Positions 2,080 through 56,093 of a stretch of 64,000 nt of DNA are shown here, in pieces. Within the stretch, counting starts at the first letter, position 1. Each line of letters starts with the position of its first letter. A program made the translations under genes and the position numbers. The notes beneath the pieces were generated by a model that worked only from the letters and a program-made list of their open reading frames with translations, did not search any database and was not told the origin of the DNA. Source of the DNA: Salvelinus alpinus. Its lineage: Eukaryota > Chordata > Actinopteri > Salmoniformes > Salmonidae. The DNA is taken from NCBI RefSeq assembly GCF_045679555.1, contig NC_092092.1, forward strand, positions 12,152,690 to 12,216,689, in the 5' to 3' direction.

Positions 2080-5000
2080 TAAAGGCTACGGGTTAGGGTT
2101 AGGTAAGGGTTATAGTTAAGGGTAGGGCTAAAGGTTAGGGTTAGGTAAGGGTTAGGGTTATGGTTAAGGGTAGGGCTAAAGGTTAGGGTTAGGTAAGGGT
2201 TATAGTTAAGGGTAGGACTAAAGGTTAGGGTTAGGTAAGGGTTATAGTTAAGGGTAGGGCTAAAGGTTAGGGTTAGGTAAGGGTTAGGGTTATGGTTAAG
2301 GGTAGGGCTAAAGGTTAGGGTTAGGTAAGGGTTATGGTTAAGGGTAGGGCTAAAGGTTAGGGTTAGGTAAGGGTTATAGTTAAGGGTAGGGCTAAAGGTT
2401 AGGGTTAGGTAAGGGTTATGGTTAAGGGTAGGGCTAAAGGTTAGGGTTAGGTAAGGGTTATAGTTAAGGGTAGGACTAAAGGTTAGGGTTAGGTAAGGGT
2501 TATAGTTAAGGGTAGGGCTAAAGGTTAGGGTTAGGTAAGGGTTAGGGTTATGGTTAAGGGTAGGGCTAAAGGTTAGGGTTAGGTAAGGGTTATAGTTAAG
2601 GGTAGAGCTAAAGGTTAGGGTTAGGTCAGGGTTATGGTTAAGGGTAGGGCTAAAGGTTAGGGTTAGGTAAGGGTTATGGTTAAGGGTAGGGCTAAGGGTT
2701 AGGGTTAGGTAAGGGTTATAGTTAAGGGTAGGGCTAAAGGTTAGGGTTAAGGGTAGGGCTAAAGGTTAGGGTTAGGTAAGGGTTATGGTTAAGGGTAGGG
2801 CTAAAGGTTAGGGTTAGGTAAGGGTTATGGTTAAGGGTAGGGCTAAAGGTTAGGGTTAGGTAAGGGTTATGGTTAAGGGTAGGGCTAAGGGTTAGGGTTA
2901 GGTAAGGGTTATAGTTAAGGGTAGGGCTAAAGGTTAGGGTTAGGTAAGGGTTATGGTTAAGGGTAGGGCTAAGGGTTAGGGTTAGGTAAGGGTTATAGTT
3001 AAGGGTAGGGCTAAAGGTTAGGGTTAGGTAAGGGTTATGGTTAAGGGTAGGGCTAAAGGTTAGGGTTAGGTAAGGGTTATGGTTAAGGGTAGGGATAAAG
3101 GTTAGGGTTAGGTAAGGGTTATGGTTAAGGGTAGGGATAAAGGTTAGGGTTAGGTAAGGGTTATGGTTAAGGGTAGGGCTAAAGGTTAGGGTTAGGTAAG
3201 GGTTATGGTTAAGGGTAGGGCTAAGGGTTAGGGTTAGGTAAGGGTTATGGTTAAGGGTAGGGCTAAAGGTTAGGGTTAGGTAAGGGTTATGGTTATGGTT
3301 AAGGGTAGGGCTAAGGGTTAGGGTTAGGGTTAGGTAAGGGTTATGGTTAAGGGTAGGGCTAAAGGTTAGGGTTAAGGGTAGGGCTAAAGGTTAGGGTTAG
3401 GTAAGGGTTATGGTTAAGGGTAGGGCTAAGGGTTAGGGTTAGGTAAGGGTTATGGTTAAGGGTAGGGCTAAAGGTTAGGGTTAGGTAAGGGTTATGGTTA
3501 AGGGTAGGGCTAAAGGTTAGGGTTAGGTAAGGGTTATGGTTAAGGGTAGGGCTAAGGGTTAGGGTTAGGTAAGGGTTATAGTTAAGGGTAGAGCTAAAGG
3601 TTAGGGTTAGGTCAGGGTTATGGTTAAGGGTAGGGCTAAAGGTTAGGGTTAGGTAAGGGTTATGGTTAAGGGTAGGGCTAAGGGTTAGGGTTAGGTAAGG
3701 GTTATAGTTAAGGGTAGGGCTAAAGGTTAGGGTTAAGGGTAGGGCTAAAGGTTAGGGTTAGGTAAGGGTTATGGTTAAGGGTAGGGCTAAAGGTTAGGGT
3801 TAGGTAAGGGTTATGGTTAAGGGTAGGGATAAAGGTTAGGGTTAGGTAAGGGTTATGGTTAAGGGTAGGGCTAAGGGTTAGGGTTAGGTAAGGGTTATAG
3901 TTAAGGGTAGGGATAAAGGTTAGGGTTAGGTAAGGGTTATGGTTAAGGGTAGGGCTAAGGGTTAGGGTTAGGTAAGGGTTATAGTTAAGGGTAGGGCTAA
4001 AGGTTAGGGTTAGGTAAGGGTTATGGTTAAGGGTAGGGATAAGGGTTAGGGTTAGGTAAGGGTTATGGTTAAGGGTAGGGCTAAAGGTTAGGGTTAGGTA
4101 AGGGTTATGGTTAAGGGTAGGGCTAAAGGTTAGGGTTAGGTAAGGGTTATGGTTAAGGGTAGGGATAAAGGTTAGGGTTAGGTAAGGGTTATGGTTAAGG
4201 GTAGGGATAAAGGTTAGGGTTAGGTAAGGGTTATGGTTATGGTTAAGGGTAGGGCTAAGGGTTAGGGTTAGGTAAGGGTTATGGTTAAGGGTAGGGCTAA
4301 AGGTTAGGGTTAAGGGTAGGGCTAAAGGTTAGGGTTAGGTATGGGTTATGGTTAAGGGTAGGGCTAAGGGTTAGGGTTAGGTAAGGGTTATGGTTAAGGG
4401 TAGGGCTAAAGGTTAGGGTTAGGTAAGGGTTATGGTTAAGGGTAGGGCTAAAGGTTAGGGTTAGGTAAGGGTTATGGTTAAGGGTAGGGCTAAGGGTTAG
4501 GGTTAGGTAAGGGTTATGGTTAAGGGTAGGGCTAAAGGTTAGGGTTAGGTAAGGGTTATGGTTAAGGGTAGGGCTAAAGGTTAGGGTTAGGTAAGGGTTA
4601 TGGTTAAGGGTAGGGCTAAAGGTTAGGGTTAGGTAAGGGTTATGGTTAAGGGTAGGGCTAAAGGTTAGGGTTAGGTAAGGGTTATGGTTAAGGGTAGGGC
4701 TAAAGGTTAGGGTTAAGGGTAGGGCTAAAGGTTAGGGTTAGGTAAGGGTTATGGTTAAGGGTAGGGCTAAAGGTTAGGGTTAGGTAAGGGTTATGGTTAA
4801 GGGTAGGGCTAAAGGTTAGGGTTAGGTAAGGGTTATGGTTAAGGGTAGGGCTAAGGGTTAGGGTTAGGTAAGGGTTATAGTTAAGGGTAGGGCTAAAGGT
4901 TAGGGTTAGGTAAGGGTTATGGTTAAGGGTAGGGCTAAGGGTTAGGGTTAGGTAAGGGTTATAGTTAAGGGTAGGGCTAAAGGTTAGGGTTAGGTAAGGG

Positions 5001-6018
5001 TTATGGTTAAGGGTAGGGCTAAGGGTTAGGGTTAGGTAAGGGTTATGGTTAAGGGTAGGGCTAAAGGTTAGGGTTAGGTAAGGGTTATGGTTAAGGGTAG
5101 GGCTAAAGGTTAGGGTTAGGTAAGGGTTATGGTTAAGGGTAGGGCTAAAGGTTAGGGTTAGGTAAGGGTTATGGTTAAGGGTAGGGCTAAAGGTTAGGGT
5201 TAGGTAAGGGTTATGGTTAAGGGTAGGGCTAAGGGTTAGGGTTAGGTAAGGGTTATGGTTAAGGGTAGGGCTAAAGGTTAGGGTTAGGTAAGGGTTATGG
5301 TTAAGGGTAGGGCTAAAGGTTAGGGTTAGGTAAGGGTTATGGTTAAGGGTAGGGCTAAAGGTTAGGGTTAGGTAAGGGTTATGGTTAAGGGTAGGGCTAA
5401 GGGTTAGGGTTAGGTAAGGGTTATGGTTAAGGGTAGGGCTAAAGGTTAGGGTTAGGTAAGGGTTATGGTTAAGGGTAGGGCTAAAGGTTAGGGTTAGGTA
5501 AGGGTTATGGTTAAGGGTAGGGATAAAGGTTAGGGTTAGGTAAGGGTTATGGTTATGGTTAAGGGTAGGGCTAAGGGTTAGGGTTAGGTAAGGGTTATGG
5601 TTAAGGGTAGGGCTAAAGGTTAGGGTTAAGGGTAGGGCTAAAGGTTAGGGTTAGGTAAGGGTTATGGTTAAGGGTAGGGCTAAGGGTTAGGGTTAGGTAA
5701 GGGTTATGGTTAAGGGTAGGGCTAAAGGTTAGGGTTAGGTAAGGGTTAGGGTTAAGGGTAGGGCTAAAGGTTAGGGTTAGGTAAGGGTTATGGTTAAGGG
5801 TAGGGCTAAAGGTTAGGGTTAGGTAAGGGTTATGGTTAAGGGTAGGGCTAAAGGTTAGGGTTAGGTAAGGGTTATGGTTAAGGGTAGGGCTAAAGGTTAG
5901 GGTTAGGTAAGGGTTATGGTTAAGGGTAGGTGTTAAAATCAGGGTCAGGTAAGGGTTATGGTTATGGTTGAGGGTATGGGTTAAGGTTAAGGTTATGGTT
6001 AGGGTTCAGGGTAGGGTC
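2080..6018. repeat. Interstitial telomere-like satellite, about 42-bp unit, roughly 90 copies
   Basis: The unit is G-rich on the plus strand. It begins with GGTTAGGGTTAGGTAAGGG and continues through TTATGGTTAAGGG and TAGGGCTAAA. Most units are 42 bp; shorter ones of about 25 bp lack the GGTAAGGGTTATGG part. Recurrent variants are TATAG for TATGG, CTAAGGG for CTAAAGG and GGGATAAA for GGGCTAAA. The right edge (5930-6018) is decayed. Several GGG runs per unit make it a G-quadruplex candidate. It resembles degenerate vertebrate telomere repeat but is not a pure TTAGGG array. Confidence 0.95.
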
Positions 6019-7102: not shown

Positions 7103-8222
7103 TACATTACACTAAACAAACTGTCAACTGAACGCACCATAAATTACACTATACAAACTGTCAACTGAACGAGCCATACATTACACTATACAAACTGTCA
7201 ACTGAACGCACCATACATTACACTATACAAACTGTCAACTGAACGAGCCATACATTACACTATACAAACTGTCAACTGAACGAGCCATACATTACACTAT
7301 ACAAACTGTCAACTGAACGCACCATACATTACACTATACAAACTGTCAACTGAACGCACCATACATTACACTATACAAACTGTCAACTGAACGAGCCATA
7401 CATTACACTATACAAACTGTCAACTGAACGCACCATACATTACACTATACAAACTGTCAACTGAACGAGCCATACATTACACTATACAAACTGTCAACTG
7501 AACGAGCCATACATTACACTATACAAACTGTCAACTGAACGCACCATACATTACACTATACAAACTGTCAACTGAACGCACCATACATTACACTATACAA
7601 ACTGTCAACTGAACGCACCAGACATTACACTATACAAACTGTCAACTGAACGAGCCATACATTACACTATACAAACTGTCAACTGAACGCACCATACATT
7701 ACACTATACAAACTGTCAACTGAACGAGCCATACATTACACTATACAAACTGTCAACTGAACGAGCCATACATTACACTATACAAACTGTCAACTGAACG
7801 CACCATACATTACACTATACAAACTGTCAACTGAACGCACCATACATTACACTATACAAACTGTCAACTGAACGAGCCAGACATTACACTATACAAACTG
7901 TCAACTGAACGAGCCAGACATTACACTATACAAACTGTCAACTGAACGAGCCAGACATTACACTATACAAACTGTCAACTGAACGCACCATACATTACAC
8001 TATACAAACTGTCAACTGAACGCACCATACATTACACTATACAAACTGTCAACTGAACGCACCATACATTACACTATACAAACTGTCAACTGAACGAGCC
8101 AGACATTACACTATACAAACTGTCAACTGAACGAGCCATACATTACACTATACAAACTGTCAACTGAACGCACCATACATTACACTATACAAACTGTCAA
8201 CTGAACGCACCATACATTACAC
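7103..8222. repeat. 37-bp minisatellite, about 30 copies
   Basis: Each unit contains CTATACAAACTGTCAACTGA followed by ACGCACCATACATTACA or a variant. Two variants dominate: GCACC and GAGCC. Some units also have AGAC for ATAC. The copies are otherwise almost identical, which points to recent expansion or strong homogenisation. The first copy (7103-7150) is the most divergent (CTAAACAAA, CATAAATT). Confidence 0.95.
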
Positions 8223-12467: not shown

Positions 12468-14204
12468 CTATCTTTTACCTAGCAAAGACTTATAGATGAC
12501 CTGGAGCCAGTGGGTTTGGCGACGAATATGAAGCGAGGGCCAGCCAACGAGAGCATACAGGTCGAAGTGGTGGGTAGTATATGGGGCTTTGGTGACAAAA
12601 CGGATGGCACTGTGATAGACTACATCCAATTTGCTGAGTAGAGTGTTGGAGGCTATTCTGTAAATGACATCGCCGAAGTCAAGGATCGCTAGGATAGTCA
12701 GTTTTACGAGGGTAAGTTTAGCAGCATGAGTGAAGGATGCTATGTTGCGAAATAGGAAGCCAATTTTATATTTCATTTTGGATTGGAGATGCTTAATGTG
12801 AGTCTGGAAGGAGAGTTTACAGTCTTACCAGACACCTAGGTATTTGTAGTTGTCCACATATTCTCAGTCAGAACCGTCCAGAGTAGTGATGCTAGATGGG
12901 CGGGCGGGTGCGGGCAGTGATCGGTTAAAGAGCATGCATTTAGTTTTACTTGCATTTAAGAGCAGTTGGAGGCCACGGAAGGAGTGTTGTATGGCATTGA
13001 AGCTTGTCTGGAGGTTTGTTAACACAGTGTCCAAAGAAGGGCCAAAAGTATACAGAATGGTGTCGTCTGCGTAGAGGTGGATCAGAGAATCACCAGCAGC
13101 AAAAGTGACATCATTGATGTACACAGAGAAAAGAGTCGGCCTGAGAAATGAACCCTGTGGCACCCCCATAGAGACTGCCAGAGGTCCGGACAACAGGCCC
13201 TCCGATTTGACACACTGAACTCTCTCTGACAAGTAGTTGGTGAACCAGGCGAGGCAGTCATTTGAGAAACCAAGGCTGTTGAGTCTGCCCTTTAAGAATG
13301 CGGTGATTGACAGAGTCAAAAGCCTTGGCCAGGTCGATGAAGACGGCTGCACAGTATTGTCTTTTACTGATGGCGGTTATGATATCGTTTAGGACCTTGA
13401 GCGTGGCTGAGGTGCACCCATAACCAGCTCGGAAACCAGATTGCATAGCGGAGAAGGTACGGTGGGATTCGAAATAGTCGGAGATCTGTTTGTTAACTTG
13501 GCTTTTGAAGACTTTAGAAAGGCAGGGTAGGATAGATATAGCTCTGTAACAGTTTGGATCGAGAGTGCCTCCCCCTTTGAAGAGGGCGATGACCGCGGCA
13601 GCTTTCCAATCTTTAGGGATCTCAGACGATACGAAGGAGAGGTTGAACAGGCTAGTAAATGGGGTTTCAACAATTGTGGCGGATCATTTTAGAAAGAGAG
13701 GGTCCAGATTGTCTAGCCCAGCTGATTTGTAGGGGTCCAGATTTTGCAGCTCTTTCAGAACATCAGCTATCTGGATTTGGGTGAAGGAGAAATGGCGGAG
13801 GCTTGGGCAAGTAGCTGTGGGGGGTGCAGAGCTGTTGACTGGGGTAGGGGTAAGCCAGGTGAAAAGCATGGCCAGCTGTAGAAAGATGCTTATTAAAATT
13901 CTCAATTATCGTAGATTTATCGGTGGTGACAGTGTTTCCTAGCTTCAGTGCAGTGGGCAGCTGGGAGGAGGTGCTCTTATTCTCCATGGACTTTACAGTG
14001 TCTAAGAAGTTTTTGGAGTTTGTGCTACGAGATGCAAATTTCTGTTTGAAAAAGCTAGCCTTTGCTTTCCTAACTGCCTGTGTATCCTAACTTCCCTGAA
14101 AAGTTGCATATCGCAGGGGCTATTCGATGCTAATGCAGTACGCCACAGGATGTTTTTGTGCTGGTCAAGGGCAGTCAGGTCTGGAGTGAACCAAGGGCTA
14201 TATA
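12468..14204 (-). pseudogene. LINE reverse transcriptase region
   Basis: RT blocks are visible in order on the minus strand in several frames. They are a linker with LQNLDPYKSAGLDNLDPLFLK (around 13684-13760), the finger/palm block AVFIDLAKAFDSVNHRIL (around 13340), MGVPQGS, then LYADDTILYT with the catalytic YADD at about 13062-13073, and a C-terminal block with LDFGDVIYRIASN and SAIRFVTKAPYTTHH (12468-12776). The catalytic Asp pair is intact, but the blocks are split by frameshifts. Ordinary function in the family is target-primed reverse transcription. Confidence 0.9.
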
Positions 14205-14206
14205 TA

Positions 14207-15811
14207 CAGTGAGGGAAAAAAGTATTTGATCCCCTGCTGATTTTGTACGTTTGCCCACTGACAAAGAAATGATCAGTCTATAATTTTAATGGTAGGTTTA
14301 TTTGAACAGTGAGAGACAGAATATCAACAAAAAAATCCAGAAAAACGCATGTCAAAAATGTTATGAATTGATTTGCATTTTAATGAGGGAAATAAGTATT
14401 TGACCCCTCTGCAAAACATGACTTAGTACTTGGTGGCAAAACCCTTGTTGGCAATCACAGAGGTCAGACGTTTCTTGTAGTTGGCCACCAGGTTTGCACA
14501 CATCTCAGGAGGGATTTTGTCCCACTCCTCTTTGCAGATCTTCTTCAAGTCATTAAGGTTTTGAGGCTGACGTTTGGCAACTCGAACCTTCAGCTCCCTC
14601 CACAGATTTTCTATGGGATTAAGGTCTGGATACTGGCTAGGCCACTCCAGGACCTTAATGTGCTTCTTCTTGAGCCACTCCTTTGTTGCCTTGGCCGTGT
14701 GTTTTCGGTCATTGTCATGCTGGAATACCCATCCACGACCCATTTTCAATACCCTGGCTGAGGGAAGGAGGTTTTCACCCAAGATTTGACGGTACATGGC
14801 CCCGTCCATTGTCCCTTTGATGCGGTGAAGTTGTCCTGTCCCTTTAGCAGAAAAACACCCCCAAAGCATAATGTTTCCACCTCCATGTTTGACGGTGGGG
14901 ATGGTTTCTTGGGGTCATAGGCAGCATTCCTCCTCCTCCAAACACGGCAAGTTGGGTTGATGCCAAAGAACTCCATTTTGGTCTCATCTGACCACAACAC
15001 GTTCACCCAGTTGTCCTCTGAATCATTCAGATGTTCATTGGCAAACTTCAGACGGGCATGTATATGTGCTTTCTTGAGCAGGGGGACCTTGCGGGCGCTG
15101 CAGGATTTCAGTCCTTCACGGCATAGTGTGTTACCAATTGTTTTCTTGATGACTATGGTCCCAGCTGCCTTGAGATCATTGACAAGATCCTCCTGTGTAG
15201 TTCTGGGCTGATTCCTCACCGTTCTCATGATCATTGCAACTTCACGAGGTGAGATCTTGCATGGAGCCCCAGGCTGAGGGAGATTGACAGGTCTTTTGTG
15301 TTTCTTCCATTTGCGAATAATCACAGAAACTGTTGTCACCTTCTCACCAAGCTGCTTGGCGATGGTCTTGTAGCCCATTCCAGCCTTGTGTAGGTCTACA
15401 ATCTTGTCCCTGACATCCTTGGAGAGCTCTTTGGTCTTGGCCATGGTGGAGAGTTTGGAATCTGATTGATTGATTGCTTCTGTGGACAGGTATCTTTTAT
15501 ACAGGTAAGAAACTGAGATTAGGAGCACTCCCTTTAAGAGTGTGCTCCTAATCTCCGTTCGTTACCTGTATGAAAGACACCTGGGAGCCAGAAATCTTTT
15601 TGATTGAGAAGGGGTCAAATACTTATTTCCCTCATTAAAATGCAAATCAATTTATAACATTTTTGACATGCATTTTTCTGGATATTTTTGTTGTTATTCT
15701 GTCTCTCACTGTTCAAATAAATCTACCATTAAAATTATAGACTGATAATATCTTTGTCAGTGGGCAAACGTACAAAATCAGCAGGGGATCAAATACTTTT
15801 TTCCCTCACTG
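14207..15811 (-). mobile_element. Tc1 transposon, full length, relatively young, inserted in the LINE
   Basis: Long inverted ends (CAGTGAGGGAAAAAAGTATT at left, mirrored at right) with TA on each side bound 1,605 bp, the typical size of a complete salmonid Tc1. The minus-strand transposase starts [20 protein letters not shown] (about 15442) and runs through paired HTH domains. The three catalytic positions are visible: [15 protein letters not shown] and [13 protein letters not shown] (Asp, Asp, Glu, DD34E type). It is spread over two overlapping frames (14746-15528 and 14423-14869), so at least one frameshift inactivates it. The inverted ends are still nearly identical. Confidence 0.95.
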
Positions 15812-16691
15812 TATTCTTAGTTCTACATTTTTTTAATGGAGCATGCTTATTTAAGATGGTGAGGAAAGCTCTTTGAAAGAATAACCAGTCATCCTCTACT
15901 GACGGAATGAGGTCAATATCCTTCCAGGATACCCGGGCCAGGTCGATTGGAAAGGCCTGCTCACTGAAGTGTTTTAGGGAGCGTTTGACAGTGATGAGGG
16001 GTGGTCATTTGACCACGGACCCATTATGGACGCAGGCAATGAGGCAGTGATCGCTGAGATCCTGGTTGAAGACAGCAGAGGTGTATTTAGAGGGCAGGTT
16101 GGTCAGGATGATATCTATGAGGGTGCTCGTATTTACGGGTTTAGCGATGTACCTGGTAGGTTCCATGATAATTTGTGTGAGATTGAGAGCATCTAGCTTA
16201 GATTGTAGGACGGATGAGGTGTTAAGCATATCCCAGTTTAGGTCACCTAACAGTACAAACTCTGAAGATAAATGGGGGGCAATTAATTCACATATGGTGT
16301 CCAGGGCACAGCTGGGGGCTGAGAGGGGTCTATAACAAGCGGCAACAGTGAGAGACTTATTTCTGGAAAGGTGGATTTTTAAAAGTAGAAGCTCGAACTG
16401 TTTGGGCACAGACCTGGATAGCATGACAGAACTCTGCAGGCTATCTCTGCAGTAGATTGCAACTCCACCCCCTTTGGCAGTTCTATCTTGGTGGAAAATG
16501 TTGTAGATGGGGATGGAAATTTCAGAATTTTTGGTGGCCTTCCTAAGCCAGGATTCAGACATGGCTAGGACGTCAGGGTTGGCAGAATGCGCTAAAGCAG
16601 TGAATAAAACAAACTTAGGGAGGAGGCTTCTGATGTTAATATGCATGAAACCAAGGCTTTTATGGTTACAGAAGTCAACAAATAATAGCGT
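15812..16691 (-). pseudogene. LINE APE-type endonuclease region
   Basis: An open stretch (16005-16646) reads MHINIRSLLPKF, then SESWLRK, GGGVAIYCRDSL, LLGDLNWDML, LIDIILTN and SDHCLIAC. These are the successive conserved blocks of apurinic-endonuclease-like nucleases of LINEs, including the GDxNWD and SDHxxI catalytic blocks. The leader frame upstream is continuous with this one apart from a single TAG at 16692-16694. The 3' part at 15812-16004 continues toward the RT across the Tc1 insertion. Confidence 0.9.
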
Positions 16692-17123
16692 CTAAGGAAT
16701 AGGGGTGGAACTGGGGGCTACAGGGCCTGGGTTAGCCTCTACATCACCAGAGGAAAAGAGGAGGAGTAGGATAAGGGTACGGCTAAAGGCTATAAGAACT
16801 GGTCGTCTAGTGCGTTGGGGACAGAGAATAAAAGGAGCCGATTTCTGGGCGTGGTAGAATAGATTCAAGACATAATGTACAGACAAGGGTATGGTAGGAT
16901 GTGAGTACAGTGGAGGTAAACCTAGGCGTTGAGTGAAGATGAGAAAGGTTTCGTCTCTGGAGGCACCAGTTAAGCCAGATGAGGTCTCCGCATGTGTGTG
17001 GGGTGGGACAAAGAAGCTATCTAAGGCATTTTGAGCAGGACTGAGGGCTCTACAGTGAAATAAAATAGTAAGAACTAGCCAAGCCAGCAGTAGACAAGGC
17101 ATATTGACATTAGAGTGAGGCAT
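16692..17123 (-). CDS. LINE leader peptide with signal-like segment and 2A ribosome-skipping motif
   Basis: The 143-codon frame starts MPHSNVNMPCLLLAWLVLTI. Residues 8-26 form a hydrophobic stretch followed by polar sequence, like a signal peptide or membrane anchor. Near its end it reads LILLLLFSSGDVEANPGP, which fits the 2A consensus D(V/I)ExNPGP preceded by a Leu-rich helix. The GDVEANPGP codons are at 16722-16748. Known 2A peptides make the ribosome release the nascent chain before the last Pro and resume, giving two proteins from one frame. Here that would separate the leader from the endonuclease/RT protein, whose frame follows directly. No function beyond this is known for the leader. 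Confidence 0.8.
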   Translation of the reverse strand: MPHSNVNMPCLLLAWLVLTILFHCRALSPAQNALDSFFVPPHTHAETSSGLTGASRDETFLIFTQRLGLPPLYSHPTIPLSVHYVLNLFYHAQKSAPFILCPQRTRRPVLIAFSRTLILLLLFSSGDVEANPGPVAPSSTPIP

Positions 17124-17510
17124 AAAGCAATCACAGTTGTTGATCAGGAGAGCTAAGACAACAATGGGTAAATGGCAATGAATGGGCAGAGCGGGTCAGT
17201 TAGGTACATACAGGACCTGAGTTCGAGGCTGCGGCCGACAGGTAAACAAAAGGAGGTACCGTGTTATTGAAACAGTCCAGGGGGCATCAGCTGTGTAGCC
17301 GAGTTATCATATGGTCAAAAGAGCAGCAATAGGTGAGTCAGGGTGCCGTTCGGTAGTCACTACTACGCTAGGCAAGCAGGGGACAAAGTGTTCAGAAAAG
17401 CTAGCGGGCCGGGGCTAGTAGATGGTTCTTCGGCGACATCGTAACAGAACAGCCTGTTGAGACCACATCGGGCGATCACGTCGGCAGTCCATACATAATT
17501 TAAACATTCA
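17124..17510 (-). other. LINE 5' untranslated region
   Basis: GC-richer sequence upstream of the leader start on the minus strand, with no open frame. It ends where the next Tc1 begins (CAGTGTAGG at 17511). An internal promoter would be expected here in a complete LINE; I cannot point to its elements. Confidence 0.5.
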
Positions 17511-46600: not shown

Positions 46601-49600
46601 AGGTCACTTGAAAAGGTTAGATAATATGAGATTTATATTTCTGTAACAATTATACATAATAAACAACCAACTTTTATTTTAGCCATGAGTTGCCTTGAGA
46701 AATACTTTTTTCTTTGTGTTTGCAGGTTTGACCACTCTCCATGTGATCCGACCATCTACCTGAAAGGAAGCCCAACTGAGCTGTTTGCTTGCGTTGCCTG
46801 TGGTCTGCATTTTGAAACCAAAGAGGCTTGGAGGGTGCATCAGCAGTCAATGGTTGGTTGTGCATGTAAAATCAACCGCTGTTAGAAGATGACAGCACTT
46901 TCAATTGTGTTCAGTCACATCATTCAAATGTGCTCTATGCAAGAATTCTACCTGTCAATATTCCTAACGTAAAGGAATCAAGTACCATGAGGGGGAAAAG
47001 GACACTTCTGAATGCCGTTTCAAACTATAAAGTAGCTTTTTACCTGCAAGTAGTCCGTCCGGCCGACCACCTTCACACAGTAGTGTCTTCCTGTTTTAAA
47101 ATTGGAGGTTGAAAACATAAACAATGTAACACTACTTCACATTCCTGCAACAGCTTTTGTTATTGGATGGAGGAACTGGATGTCCATCTCTACCAAAGCA
47201 GTAGAGAGCAGCATTTAGCTGTGATATACACTTGGTGGCACTAAATACCAATGAGGAAGATCAATTACTATTATGTCTCTTAAGATTATTAAAGTATTCA
47301 TTTAATATTTTTTTATTCTTGTTTAAGTTTTCAACCACAGATATTGCACACACATTTCAATCCATCCCCACATTGTGTGGGGAAATTGTTATTTTGTTTA
47401 GCTGTCCTCTTCGCCCAATGAAGACCATGACCACAGTCAGACCTGCCAGTCCATCGTCTGCTTCGCCTGCCCTGTCTGCTACTTCCTGTTCTACACAAGG
47501 GACGAGTGCCTCCATCACATGTCGGCCAAAAACCACTTCTCTCAGTCCATCATCATGAGTGGTAAGCCTTAACTGCCTCTCCCACTCTGAGTATCATCAA
47601 TCATGTAAACAAGGATATGAATCTGCATCAACACTAAATATTCCGCTCAGGAAAATTGGATTTAGGCGGAAAGAGCAAAGATAAGCGGCATATGGACTCT
47701 CTTTATGCTGTTAGTGGCATTACTAGTTATCTGCATGTAGAGCAAATGGGTTGTGCGAATGAATAGTGCTTGGACAGGATAACATAACCAATACACTGCT
47801 ATTAGTTTGTATGCTCTATTGAAACATGTAACCAGCTATTTTGTTCTCTTTCTGAACAAAATAAACTACAGGGACAGCATTGCCAGTTCCCATCCCACGA
47901 TATGCGAAGAATCGTCTTACTGCTTTATGTAAGGCGGTTATATTCAGCGTGAGATGTACAACATGCCGAAAGGGGCTTACCTCACACATGGAAGCACAGG
48001 CCCACTTCAAGTAAGTTTATATCTGTTTGTGTAGTTTTGAATTCTGTATGGCGTTAGTGTACATGCAATTACATGGTTGTTACATAGGCAGGTATAATTA
48101 CAGTGTAGGTACATATTGTTCATACACAGTTTGTCTGTGTATTAGAAAATAAATCAATTACAGAAATACATAGTCAACATCTCACTTCCTTCATATGGAT
48201 AAATCATCTTATTTGTCATTTTGTTCATGTTATTCTTCTCCCTCAGTGTGCAGTGCAGAGAGGGCAGTGCCAGGGCTGAGGCAGAGAAAACAGTGGTGCA
48301 GGTTATGAAACAACTGCAAGTGCTGGGCCAGTGCTCTGTGTGTTGCAAACTGTTCCTCACCCAAGGTCAAGTTGACAGGCACAAAGAATTGAGTCAGCAC
48401 ATTACTGAAGTCAACAGCACCATGGAAAGGGCGATTCTGCACTACAGCAATTTCTATGAAATCCAACACGCCAAGAGGGCTGCGGTTGCCCCATCACAGA
48501 AGAGGGACAAGGAGAGGGGTGATTCTGTTGGATCCCCAGCCAAGCGCCAGAGACGCGGGGGAACTTTGAATGGCAGTGCTGGGCCCTCAACGAGTGTCTC
48601 GATAGTGGCATGGTTCTGTGAATGTGGCCAGCGCTTTTCAGAGGAGGCCATGGCTAGCAAGCACCTTTTAGCTGCCAATCAGATATTCCATCAATGTGGT
48701 GTGTGTGGAAAGCATATGGGTGAGTCGTCCATCACTCGCCTGCACATGAGCCGCTTTCACGGCGGCGCCCACCTCTCAAACTTCCTATTCCACTGCCGGC
48801 TGTGCAAGGTGGACATGCCACGTCACGAGGACATCCTGTTGCATGTGTCAGAGACCCACAGTGGACATACTTACTTCAGGGAAAGAGAGGTATCAGACGA
48901 GGAGCCTGCTCCCATCTCCTATTCCAAACCCTCCACCAGTGGCAGACCCAGCGCTCCCACTGAGCCCAGGGCTAGAACTACAACTCCCACACGTCTCCCC
49001 AAACAGGACGAGAGGTGGCTGTGCAGAATGTGTGAGGACATCTTTGACTCGGAGCGAGCCGTGCACAAGCACTGCAGAGATGTGAGAAACCACAGTTTCC
49101 AGAGGTTTGCCTGTGGCCACTGCCCACAGAAGTTCTTCAAGGAGGACACATTACGCAGGCACTGTGTGAACGAGCACAGCAACCAAATAGTGACACGCTA
49201 CTTCTGCGGGCTCTGTGACAGCATGCAGTATGACACTGAGGGGGAGTTCCAGGAACACTATAGAAGCCTGCACAGTAAGGACTACTACCTCATGGATGTG
49301 CCTGAGGTTGATAGACCCACTGAGGCCGAAAACTACAACTCCAGTCAACTGGCAACAACCAGTGAATGTCTGTGTCCATGCATGTCGTTAGAAAAGGCCA
49401 AAGACGAAAGGAAGGCTACTTTCACACGATGCATGAAGCGGCTGTCCAGTGAAGACAAATGCAGCTTTGTATGTGCACCATGCGACATCAAGGTAGCCTC
49501 CTTTGCTCAGATTAAGACTCATGTCCACTCTCAACACGACGCCTTGGGGCTAGAGAAGACCTTTGACGTGGTGTGTGGATCCTGTCAGGAGAGTCATAAC

Positions 49601-51230
49601 GACGTGCCCAGTTTCCATAACCACTACCACTCCCAGCACTGCTTTCTGGAGCCTTGCTCCAGCTCTAGAGATGGAGGTGAGAGTCGTACGGAGAAGGCAG
49701 CAGCTTCCTCCGCTGTTAAGACACTGCCTGCAGTGGAGATTAAACCGGAAGTGAATGGCAAGTCTGCTTTGAGTTTGGAACGTGTTCCGTGATTCATTTC
49801 CACTGCACTGACCTTCCTGGTCTTAGAAAACTGATTTGATTCATAATTTATTTTATAGTGGAGGAGTTGGAAGATATGAAACATGCCATCGCTGTGAACT
49901 TGGATGAGGTCAGAGATGACACTGAACCCCATGGAGGTGATTATGTTTGCTGATCTGTTCAGTGATTTGGTGAATGACATCGACCGTAGACATTACATAG
50001 CTGCAGCTAGCCTAGCGGTTAAGAGCGTTGAGCCAGTAACCGAAAGTTCGCTGGTTTGAATACCTGAGCCGACTAGCTGAAAAATCTGTTGATGTACCCT
50101 TGAGCAACTTAACCCTAATTGCTCCTTTATGTCGCTCTGGATAAGAGCGTCTGCTAAATGACTCAAATGTAAAAGAGCTATAGGAGGTTTCTTGTATTTT
50201 GGTCTGTTCAGTGATTTGGTGAATGACATCTACCATAGATATTAAACAGCTATAGAAGGTTTCTTAGAAATGTTTCCTAAAGTGCTGTTTTTTTCCCAAC
50301 TGAGATTCTCTTTTTGTTGTCCATTTCCATTGTGTTTCAGATGAATCTGAGGAAATGAAGCGCGCCTTGGCTTTAAGTGCAGAAGAAGCAAGAGAGCCAA
50401 CTGACTTTGATATTGGTGTGTAACACCTTTACTTATCTTTGTTTTTTTGAGGACCTTTTCAGTAGTTACATTTTAGTTTACACGTTAGAGTTGGGAGATT
50501 TTTAGGTTAGACGTCTTCTACGATATGCTAATCCAAATATCACGATATCCTGTAATTGTTTTGCGTCGGTAAGGACTAAGTAATTTCAGACTGTGCGATT
50601 TTTGTGCCTTTTTTATAGTATTAGTCACATTCTCATTAAATAATCTTTGTGTGGCAAAGAAATAAGACTTAGTTCATTAATTTAGACTTCATTTTCAACA
50701 TATTGATAGAACCTAACTGGTAAAACTGCACAGTTTTGATTTGTAAAGTTCAAATACGGTATAGTCTTTGCACATCACAATATATCGTCTTGCACTTCAC
50801 GATATTCGATTTAATCATATATCAGCCAATCCCTGTTGCATATTGCCTTATTTGAATGGCCAGAAAGGTTCTGAAGAGTTTTGAAGCGGTTGCCCAATCT
50901 GGTCATGTAGATGTAGCATAATAAAAACAAGATGATACCTCTCTTCTTTTTTTAACCAGCGTTACATGCTTGAAGAATAACCTTAGTGTGAGTATGTCTA
51001 ATCAAATCATAGTGACGTTTAATGCACACTGGGATATTCAGATAGTTGGTGTAGAGGACAGCATGAACACTTTTTGGATGGTTTTGAGATGGTAGTCTCT
51101 TGTGTTTTTGTGACAGTTATATTTCTTATTTAAGTTGACATTATTTGATTTTTTCCCCCCTGTTGTGCCCCCCCAATTTATCTTCACAGAGATGGAGGAA
51201 GCTCTCAAAAGAAGCCTTCTTGAATACTGA
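40589..51230 (+). CDS. znf451: Zinc finger protein 451, SUMO2/3 E3/E4 ligase
   Basis: Coding exons (plus): 40589-40639, 45326-45409, 45916-46029, 46161-46269, 46465-46615, 46726-46852, 47402-47561, 47872-48010, 48247-49757, 49859-49936, 50341-50415, 51190-51230. Phases agree throughout, giving 879 codons and a stop. The protein extends poly-SUMO2/3 chains in the nucleus with UBC9. SIM1 (VEFVS) is followed by PLRP and SIM2 ([15 protein letters not shown]), the known catalytic pair. About twelve C2H2-like fingers run from [20 protein letters not shown] to [20 protein letters not shown], with a basic NLS-like [10 protein letters not shown]. The donor after exon 7 (ATG|GTTGGT) is weak. Human ZNF451 is longer (about 1,061 aa); its PIN-like region is missing here. 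Exon 1 is non-coding. Confidence 0.95.
41060..41805. other. Unassigned insert within the old Tc1
   Basis: This interrupts the Tc1 left end. It shows no open frame or recognised family and becomes AT-rich toward its right end. It could be a further, unrecognised repeat. Confidence 0.4.
42123..43354 (+). mobile_element. Tc1 transposon nested in the older Tc1
   Basis: Ends with GTGCCTTCGGAAAGTATTCA at left and its mirror TACTTTCCGAAGGCACTG at right, with TA outside. The plus-strand transposase is broken into frames: [20 protein letters not shown] near 42650, [12 protein letters not shown] near 42850 and [11 protein letters not shown] near 43030. It is the same family as the fragment at 1-690. 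The 5' HTH part is partly deleted: in the left half only short matches remain before 42560. Confidence 0.9.
44309..45325. other. ZNF451 intron 2, right part
   Basis: At 44528 TTAAAGGGATAGTTCACCCA marks one end of a TTAA-flanked MITE, the same end sequence as at 35219 and 36272. Its other end is not recognised. The rest shows nothing supported. Confidence 0.45.
45326..45409 (+). CDS. znf451: ZNF451 exon 3: PLRP and SIM2
   Basis: Phase 0 on both sides. It reads [19 protein letters not shown], then DDSLPMAET. The PLRP linker and the hydrophobic-acidic SIM2 form, with SIM1 of exon 2, the minimal catalytic region known from human ZNF451. Confidence 0.93.
45484..45850 (+). repeat. tRNA-derived SINE in ZNF451 intron 3
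   Basis: Begins at a B-box-like GGGTTCGATCCCAGGCTG; the A-box part is missing, so it is 5'-truncated. The long body contains CGACTCCTTGTGGCGGGCCG and GGTGTTTCCCCCGACACATT and ends AATGGGGGAAAAGTACAACA. A family common in salmonid DNA; the name is not assigned. It fills most of the 506-bp intron. Confidence 0.8.
48247..49757 (+). CDS. znf451: ZNF451 exon 10: large zinc-finger exon
   Basis: Acceptor CCTCAG|TGTGC. It encodes about 504 residues with finger blocks [153 protein letters not shown] and [21 protein letters not shown] basic, Ser-rich linker lies after the first finger and a Pro/Ser/Thr linker after the fourth. The exon ends at GTGAATG|GCAAGT, a GC donor, which is the only junction that keeps the frame into exon 11. 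Confidence 0.9.
49859..51230 (+). CDS. znf451: ZNF451 exons 11-13: three ubiquitin-interacting-type helices
   Basis: Three short exons in the same phase (1,1) each encode one helix. Exon 11 (49859-49936) gives [20 protein letters not shown]. Exon 12 (50341-50415) gives [19 protein letters not shown]. Exon 13 (51190-51230) gives [13 protein letters not shown] and stop. The second and third fit the UIM pattern (acidic-hydrophobic-x-x-Ala-x-x-x-Ser-x-x-acidic); the first has Asn for the Ser. The last matches the C-terminal UIM of human ZNF451. Equal phase makes exons 11 and 12 skippable without a frame change. Confidence 0.85.
50003..50172 (+). repeat. HpaI-type tRNA SINE in ZNF451 intron 11
   Basis: The tRNA-like head reads TAGCCTAGCGGTTAAGAGCG and GGTTTGAATACC; the tail reads GCTCTGGATAAGAGCGTCTG and CTAAATGACTCAAATGTAAA. 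Full length, moderately diverged, inserted in one copy of a small tandem duplication. Confidence 0.9.
50480..50840. repeat. Possible hAT-type MITE in ZNF451 intron 12
   Basis: CACGATATCCTG near 50539 and CACGATATTCGA near 50798, with ATATATCAGCC at the right, recall the CGATATA-rich ends of the element at 23436-23765. No clean ends or duplication were found. Confidence 0.3.
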
Positions 51231-54471: not shown

Positions 54472-56093
54472 CAGTTGAAGTCAGAAGTTTACATACACTT
54501 AGGTTGGAGTCATTACAACTCGTTTTTCAACCACTCCACAAATTTCTTGTTAACTATAGTTTTGGCAAGTTGGTTAGGACATCTACTTTGTGCATGACAC
54601 AAGTAATTTTTCCAACAATTGTTGACAGACAGATTATTTCACTTATAATTCACGATCACAATTCCAGTGGGTCAGAAGTGTACATACACTAAGTTGACTG
54701 TGCCTTTAAACACTTTGGAAAATTCCAGAAAATTATGTCATGGCTTTAGAAGCTTCTGATAGGCTAATTGACATCATTTGAGTCAATTGGAGGTATACCT
54801 GTGGATGTATTTCAAGGCCTACCTTCAAACTCAGTGCCTCTTTGCTTGACATCATGGGAAAATCAAAAGAAATCAGCCAAGACCTCGGAACAAAATTGTA
54901 CACCTCCACAAGTCTGGTTCATCCTTGGGAGCAATTTCCAAACACCTGAAGGTACCACATTCATCTGTACAAACAATCGTACGTTAATATAAACACCATG
55001 GGACCGCACAGCCGTCATAACGCTCAGGAAGGAGACGCATTCTGTCTCCTAGAGATTAACGTACTTTGGTGCAAAAAGTGCAAATCAATCCCAGAACAAC
55101 AGCAAAGGACCTTGTGAAGATGCTGGAGAAAACAGGTACCAAAGTATTTATATCCACAGTAAAACGAGTCCTATATCGACATAACCTGAAAGGCCGCTCA
55201 GCAAGGAAGAAGCCACTGCTCCAAATCCGCCATAAAAAAAAGCCAGACTACGGTTTACAACTGCACATGGGGACAAAGATGGTACTTTTTGGAGAAATGT
55301 CCTCTGGTCTGATGAAACAAAAATAGAACTGTTTGGCCATAATGACCATCGTTATGTTTGGAGGAAAAAGGGGGATGCTTGCAAGCCGAAGAACACCATC
55401 CCAACCGTGAAGCACAGGGGTGGCAGCATCATGTTGTGGGGGTCCTTTGCTGCAGGAGGAACTGGTGCACTTCACAAAATAGATGGCATCATGAGGAAAG
55501 AAAATGATGTGGATATATTGAAGCAACATCTCAAGACATCAGTCAGGAAGTTAAAGCTTGGTCGCAAATGGGTCTTCCAAATGGACAATGGCCCCATGCA
55601 TATTTCCAAAGTTGTGGCAAAATGGCTTCAGGACAACAAAGTCAAGGTATTGGAGTGGCCATCACAAATCCCTGACCTCAATCACATAGAAAATGTGTGG
55701 GCATAACTGAAAAAGCGTGTGCGAGCAAGAAGGCCTACAAACCTGACTCAGTTACACCAGCTCTGTCAGGAGGAATGGGCCAAAATAAGCTGGGAAGCTT
55801 GTGGAAGGCTACCCGAAACGTTTGACCCAAGTTAAACAATTTAAAGGCAATACTACCAAATACTAATTGAGTGTATGTAAACTTCTGACCCACTGGGAAT
55901 GTGATGAAAGAAAAAAAGCTGGAAAAAATCATTCTCTTTACTATTATTCTGACATTTCACATTCTTAAAATAAAATGGTGATCCTAACTGACCTAAAACA
56001 GGGAATTTTTACTAGGACTAAATGTTAGGAATTGTGAAAAACTGAGTTTAAATGTATTTGGCTAAAGTGTATGTAAACTTCCGACTACAACTG
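54472..56093 (+). mobile_element. Sleeping Beauty-type Tc1 transposon, full length, broken
   Basis: The outer end CAGTTGAAGTCAGAAGTTTA and an inner repeat near 54668-54690 (GGGTCAGAAGTGTACATACA) form the IR/DR arrangement of this family; the right end mirrors it (AACTTCCGACTACAACTG). Length is 1,622 bp with TA at both sides. The transposase starts [14 protein letters not shown] (54854). VQKVQINPRTTAKDLVKML at 55069 is the second HTH, and 55407-55706 holds [29 protein letters not shown] (second Asp) and HIENVWA (Glu region). The first Asp block is in another frame. Several stops and frame changes inactivate it. Confidence 0.95.

Follow-up and report, generated by a model that had tools for sequence, protein, structure and literature searches.

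The minus strand of the window, by which we mean the whole 64,000-nucleotide stretch of Salvelinus alpinus DNA analysed here, carries, as part of a dead copy, the 5' region of an APE-type non-LTR retrotransposon (LINE) with a single ORF, intact copies of which encode a leader, a 2A (StopGo) peptide, an endonuclease and a reverse transcriptase (RT) in one frame. Comparisons among its lineages show selection on the 2A peptide and, together with its sequence class, make ribosome skipping at that site the best explanation, and we put the probability of this reading as a whole at roughly 0.85. The ribosome would skip the Gly-Pro bond at the 2A, a leader of about 126–133 residues ending in ...NPG would be released, and translation would go on to give an endonuclease-RT starting with Pro, so that neither a second ORF nor an internal start would be needed to part the leader from the enzyme. 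More tentatively, the leader may be a membrane- or ER-directed product in its own right, and skipping may keep the enzyme cytosolic and available for RNP formation. The features of the window copy are collected in Table 1.

Table 1. Features of the LINE copy in the window and of the transposon inserted into it (positions in the window).
Feature	Position	Strand	Remarks
Leader open frame, 167 codons stop to stop	16692..17195	-	First AUG 17121-17123; AUG with A at -3: 17100-17102
Hydrophobic N-terminal stretch CLLLAWLVLTILFHC, tentatively signal-like	17052..17096	-	Maximal 15-residue Kyte-Doolittle mean 2.49 in the window copy
30-codon 2A/StopGo tract (22 upstream codons and core octapeptide)	16722..16811	-	dN/dS 0.06 between lineages A and B
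2A core DVEANPGP; skipping of the Gly-Pro bond predicted between the last two codons	16722..16745	-	A-B: 3 silent, 0 replacement
Stop codon in the linker from 2A to endonuclease	16692..16694	-	Sense codon in open sibling copies
APE-type endonuclease stretch in the leader's frame, in-frame stop 16005-16007 at its end	16005..16691	-	PF03372, E 2.7e-9
Tc1/Sleeping Beauty-type DNA transposon inside the LINE	14204..15814		205-nt inverted arms; PF25787, PF01498
Reverse transcriptase and C-terminal region, broken frames	12468..13683	-	PF00078, E 5.4e-11 and 6.1e-10, in two frames

The leader frame of the window copy contains the hydrophobic stretch CLLLAWLVLTILFHC and ends in LLLLFSSGDVEANPGPVAPSSTPIP immediately before its stop. 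The earlier note had read the ending LLLLFSSGDVEANPGP as a 2A motif on the minus strand, in frame with an endonuclease except for one stop, and this proves correct: the core is DVEANPGP, the two frames are identical, and a single TAG stands between them. The DNA pattern of the motif, with up to two mismatches allowed, is matched once in the window against 0.01 expected. The copy is judged dead because of the linker TAG, the stop at the end of the endonuclease stretch, the 1.6-kb Tc1-type insert (its arms 97% complementary), the splitting of the RT over two frames, and the fact that the 3' tail of young copies finds no match there with up to three mismatches allowed. The transposase of the insert is itself spread over two frames, and a second Tc1-like transposase fragment (PF13358) lies at 55236-55706. 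Elsewhere, the window holds about 94 copies of a 42-bp satellite of TTAGGG-like, telomere-like words (2150-6017), with long, spurious-looking minus-strand open frames; a tandem satellite of 30 copies of a 37-bp unit with 96% matches (7103-8222); and an open stretch of 529 codons that encodes C2H2 zinc fingers of the ZNF451 type (48203-49792; PF23108, E 1.9e-27), which is probably an exon of a ZNF451-like gene.

Copies were searched for in the window's own genome (2.37 Gb, 928 contigs). The leader gave 9808 first-look candidates, and all 150 of those scored were matches; among the seven other best leader matches (L002-L008), DVExNPGP is present in five and its Glu is changed in two. The DxExNPGP DNA pattern GAYNTNGARNNNAAYCCNGGNCC has 5364 exact matches in the genome (2644 + 2720), compared with 9 for the reversed pattern, and the first 30 loci opened among them all belong to the window's LINE family. 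The motif is thus not confined to the window copy, and on these counts, together with the expectation of 0.01 in the window, chance or a single-copy artefact was rejected. A second 2A family using CCB codons was considered and dropped, as its 28 matches (control 7), inspected by eye, resemble the same LINE with variant codons. Twenty copies were fetched from an endonuclease search, picked mostly for long open frames and hence a biased sample; 18 of them have DVExNPGP in frame, the exceptions being L021, broken at the first core residues, and L026, which has no motif. Half of the twenty possess 1106–1108 open codons running from leader through 2A and endonuclease to RT, with DVEVNPGP in frame in every one. 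In the one intact copy scanned (L009, a frame of 1108 aa), PF03372 lies at residues 173-370 and PF00078 at 668-909, so that an APE endonuclease and an RT share one ORF. The layout that had been proposed for active copies therefore holds in these open siblings, and copies other than that in the window retain NPGP in the frame of the endonuclease, contrary to what would be found if the motif were lacking or the leader out of frame. The family is still active in this salmonid genome or was so until very recently.

Retention of the motif was also assessed in a sample blind to it. An endonuclease DNA pattern, with up to three mismatches, has 6740 matches in the genome (control 0), ordered with exact matches first, which favours little-mutated copies; the sample comprises, among the matches listed, the 31 within the first 60.1 Mb of contig C1. 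The exact motif lies 142–180 nt upstream on the same strand in 16 of the 31, a 17th motif match, 1224 nt from its endonuclease, having been left out as another element's. When the remainder were read by eye, nine proved to have a 5' truncation that falls at the motif or before it (L059, L060, L063, L064 and L066-L070, in which the apparent duplicate pairs L063/L064 and L066/L067 are counted), and in six the motif is altered or deleted (L061, L062, L065 and L071-L073). It is accordingly kept in 16 of 22 informative copies and lost in 6, a loss expected of decaying copies, yet also compatible with a relaxed need for the motif. Two of the six, L072 and L073, have in common a deletion that removes the whole 2A. 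With up to three mismatches allowed, its junction occurs at these two places and nowhere else in the genome, and a propagating 2A-less subfamily was therefore rejected; local duplication is likelier, since the two occurrences are 50 kb apart on one contig.

The StopGo core is given, in the part of PMC12846837 available to us, as (D/G/C/N)(V/I)ExNPGP, with Leu-rich upstream hexapeptide motifs in which (A/S/C)G directly precedes the Asp at p12; one example each of motifs 1, 3, 4 and 6 was assayed there, and all four were active. The same portion of that source states that cellular genes only rarely use 2A peptides. The sequence LILLLLCSSG-DVEVNPGP of the salmonid LINE fits both the core and the lead-in: the core reads DVEANPGP in the window copy and DVEVNPGP in the ten intact copies, and it is preceded by ...LLLLCSSG, the D following at once. 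At p15 most copies have Val, whereas the window copy has Ala; Val lies outside the favoured p15 residues in what is available of PMC12846837, though p15 is variable. Coding sequence continues in frame on both sides of the motif, and selection acts at the level of the peptide, as described below. StopGo skipping is the best explanation of such a selected peptide, and skipping activity is predicted from it.

Decay after insertion is neutral, and selection was therefore sought between lineages. The alignment comprised 34 copies with open frames, drawn from 57 with the motif, together with the window copy, and changes were counted by the Nei-Gojobori method in ten pairs, each lineage being represented by a single copy. 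Lineages A (L010) and B (L046) are the two with many young copies. Between them, the 30-codon 2A tract has accumulated 10 silent changes in 25.8 sites and 2 replacements in 64.2 sites, a dN/dS of 0.06, and the core octapeptide 3 silent changes in 6 sites and no replacement in 18 sites; elsewhere, dN/dS is 0.10 in the endonuclease, 0.44 in the N-terminal part of the leader and 0.26 in its middle. In the other nine pairs the tract gives 0.05–0.29, the four highest values coming from pairs of closely related lineages or pairs with the dead window copy (some close pairs give 0.18–0.29). Seven pairs do not involve the window copy, and their core is free of replacements; in the three that do involve it, there is one. 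The leader ranges over the ten pairs from 0.33 to 1.06 in its N-terminal part and from 0.23 to 1.09 in its middle, where the high values occur in closer pairs.

Set against neutrality, at most 2 replacements among the 12 A-B changes have a binomial P of 1.4e-4, and the 2A tract differs from the leader with a Fisher P of 0.012. The A-B core count holds partly by construction, as L046 was found through the motif pattern, in which most core positions are already specified; the test was therefore repeated on copies found by their endonuclease. Two of 13 changes are replacements in A-D (P 5e-5; 2A versus leader, P 0.015), and 5 of 16 in A-C (P 0.001; 2A versus leader, only P 0.055). For the 22 upstream codons alone, which lie outside the motif pattern, P is 0.004 in A-B and 0.002 in A-D. 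The neutral control consists of nine dead members of the window's subfamily, which yield a pN/pS of 1.11 in the 2A tract and 0.73 in the leader, over 36 non-independent pairs; they had been found through a relaxed motif pattern, a bias that works against a high pN/pS.

Silent changes thus pile up between lineages while the bias against replacements is gone among dead copies, and it follows that the active element needed the peptide and not the DNA. Sheer abundance could carry any sequence through the genome, and NPGP might on that account be a chance or DNA-level conserved feature of the repeat devoid of peptide function, but the scarcity of replacements between lineages and its disappearance among dead copies make this extremely improbable, and DNA-level conservation was rejected. 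The comparison of silent with replacement changes that the earlier note had proposed has accordingly detected selection on the motif. On these substitution counts, the peptide of the 2A tract has been selected in active lineages, under a constraint comparable to that on the endonuclease. That constraint could also be that of ordinary coding sequence in one fused leader-endonuclease-RT protein made without skipping. Such a protein is always encodable, as nothing interrupts the reading frame at the motif in intact copies, and the endonuclease has a dN/dS similar to that of the 2A tract. Against it, dN/dS in the remainder of the leader is 4–7 times that of the tract in A-B, the contrast given above by the Fisher tests, and the part conserved is precisely the octapeptide and the Leu-rich (S)G lead-in that define StopGo elements in the available part of PMC12846837. 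We regard a fused protein as improbable and keep to skipping as the preferred reading.

The leader itself is, we conclude, a real and moderately constrained protein. No Pfam domain was found in the window leader (E up to 1) or in two young leaders (E up to 10), and weak PDB matches to myosin XV (E 0.07-0.08) were taken as chance and not as its fold. In a survey of 55 codons in 14 copies, each copy has one to three in-frame AUGs; in 13 of the 14 an AUG stands directly before the hydrophobic stretch (MPC...), in each case with A at -3. With initiation at this AUG, the leader released would be about 126 residues long. The hydrophobic N-terminus recurs in all lineages, with Kyte-Doolittle maxima of 2.15–3.29 in eight copies, at least one per lineage, and is lost in two of the 34 aligned copies, L034 and L035. 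In these two, about 8 kb apart, the leader N-terminus is replaced by unrelated, repetitive-looking sequence (ILLGGTPPSY), and the frame stays open into the 2A.

These features raise the alternative of dual targeting, in which a signal sequence would send the leader, or an unskipped fusion, to the ER, while skipping would leave the enzyme cytosolic, as in sea-urchin NLR proteins. The position of the hydrophobic stretch behind an AUG in good context, its recurrence across lineages and the precedent in the available part of PMC4981915, where the N-terminal 26-residue 2A of SpNLR2A is itself the signal, all argue for it. On the other side, the N-terminal part of the leader is the region with a dN/dS of 0.33–1.06; the other two reading frames of lineage B are as hydrophobic as the leader frame; and directional hydrophobicity simulations give P from 0.005 to 0.36, with 4 of 9 below 0.05. 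The hydrophobicity is therefore poorly constrained and partly an effect of composition. The basic n-region of a cleavable signal peptide is absent from the eight copies, which have 0–1 Lys/Arg in their first 20 residues, and the 2A core lies 118–121 codons after the AUG of best context, the one with A at -3, so that the 2A is not itself an N-terminal signal of about 26 aa as in SpNLR2A. A signal peptide on the leader is possible but unproven, and dual targeting seems to us rather unlikely. Of the double claim first made for this element, the 2A half thus stands firmly, as thousands of copies have the motif in frame and purifying selection acts on it, whereas the signal half is far less secure. 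A broader version is more doubtful still: that this is a currently active vertebrate LINE whose ORF1 has been replaced by a membrane-directed leader shed by skipping, with the enzyme made on ER-bound ribosomes and freed to the cytosol, and with the efficiency of skipping controlling the balance between free enzyme and ER-bound fusion. According to the available part of De Felipe 2010, some upstream proteins that are translocated into the ER inhibit the 2A through their C-terminal region, and such inhibition would give an arrangement of signal-bearing leader and 2A a built-in mixture of products.

Outside the ORF, the family has the anatomy of a non-LTR retrotransposon, with dispersed copies, many of them 5'-truncated, and a common 3' end. 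Young copies share a 3' tail with an A-rich run at its end, and a stem-loop of -18.9 kcal/mol is predicted there (a value without a shuffle control). Upstream of the motif, the sequence that five young copies have in common extends for 0.87 kb in L014 and for as much as about 1.65 kb between L009 and L010, and no frame of at least 60 codons that could be an ORF1 is common to the five between 1200 and 400 nt upstream. The 5'UTR of young copies (L016 with the upstream L075) contains repeated stretches of about 210 bp, differing in number between copies, which could possibly be a promoter array. Zebrafish ZfL2-2, of the L2 clade, is similar as far as the accessible description goes, with one ORF, no ORF1 and repeat units in its 5'UTR, and because of this match in single ORF and 5'UTR repeats the salmonid LINE likely belongs to the L2 clade. 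A PWF...W is present (PWF at residue 452), with a spacing unlike the residue numbers quoted for the conserved tail-binding region of the L2 clade and its spaced Pro-Trp/Glu/Trp. If the RNA-binding region of ZfL2-2 (residue 324 in the accessible description) corresponds to this PWF site, ZfL2-2 would, as a rough estimate, be without a leader of the salmonid length. SalL2, described in the available part of PMC3747384 as a salmonid L2 LINE and the partner of the SmaI and FokI SINEs, comes from the same host group and has a structured 3' tail; set beside it by description only, the present LINE is possibly SalL2 or a sister family, which is a guess. One scan of viral contigs confirmed no relatives.

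The presence of 2A sequences in non-LTR retrotransposons is already known, and the salmonid LINE is therefore a further vertebrate case of a known phenomenon. Odon and colleagues are said to have found them, in 2013, in APE-type elements of clades including Rex1, Crack, L2, L2A, CR1 and Ingi, with L2 reportedly among the clades whose 2A is active. In 2A-bearing non-LTR elements, their presence is correlated with a single ORF in place of ORF1 and ORF2, and in those of the APE type the 2A is in frame with the endonuclease-RT, as in the salmonid LINE. The L1Tc element of Trypanosoma cruzi, a protist element of the Ingi clade, reportedly carries a 2A described by Heras and colleagues in 2006, likewise in frame with LINE proteins; the likeness is one of description only. 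SpNLR2A, in the available part of its source, resembles the salmonid LINE in its Leu-rich lead-in, its DVExNPGP and a signal-like sequence tied to skipping, and differs from it in that about 100 residues separate the hydrophobic N-terminus from the 2A in the salmonid protein, which moreover belongs to a LINE.

No published description of a 2A in a fish LINE was recognised in a literature search conducted mostly below full-text depth. What is new, and well supported, is a very abundant vertebrate family with intact frames and evidence of selection set against a neutral control; compared with the elements of Odon and colleagues, it adds thousands of copies and a selection test with dead copies as the control. 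With more than 5000 motif copies, many near-identical full-length frames and dead copies that serve as the neutral control, it allows selection on a 2A to be read directly. The salmonid LINE supplies a natural Leu-rich 2A in abundance, for which skipping is predicted, and opens to tests in fish cells the question of why a 2A, and not a separate ORF1, is found in some LINEs.
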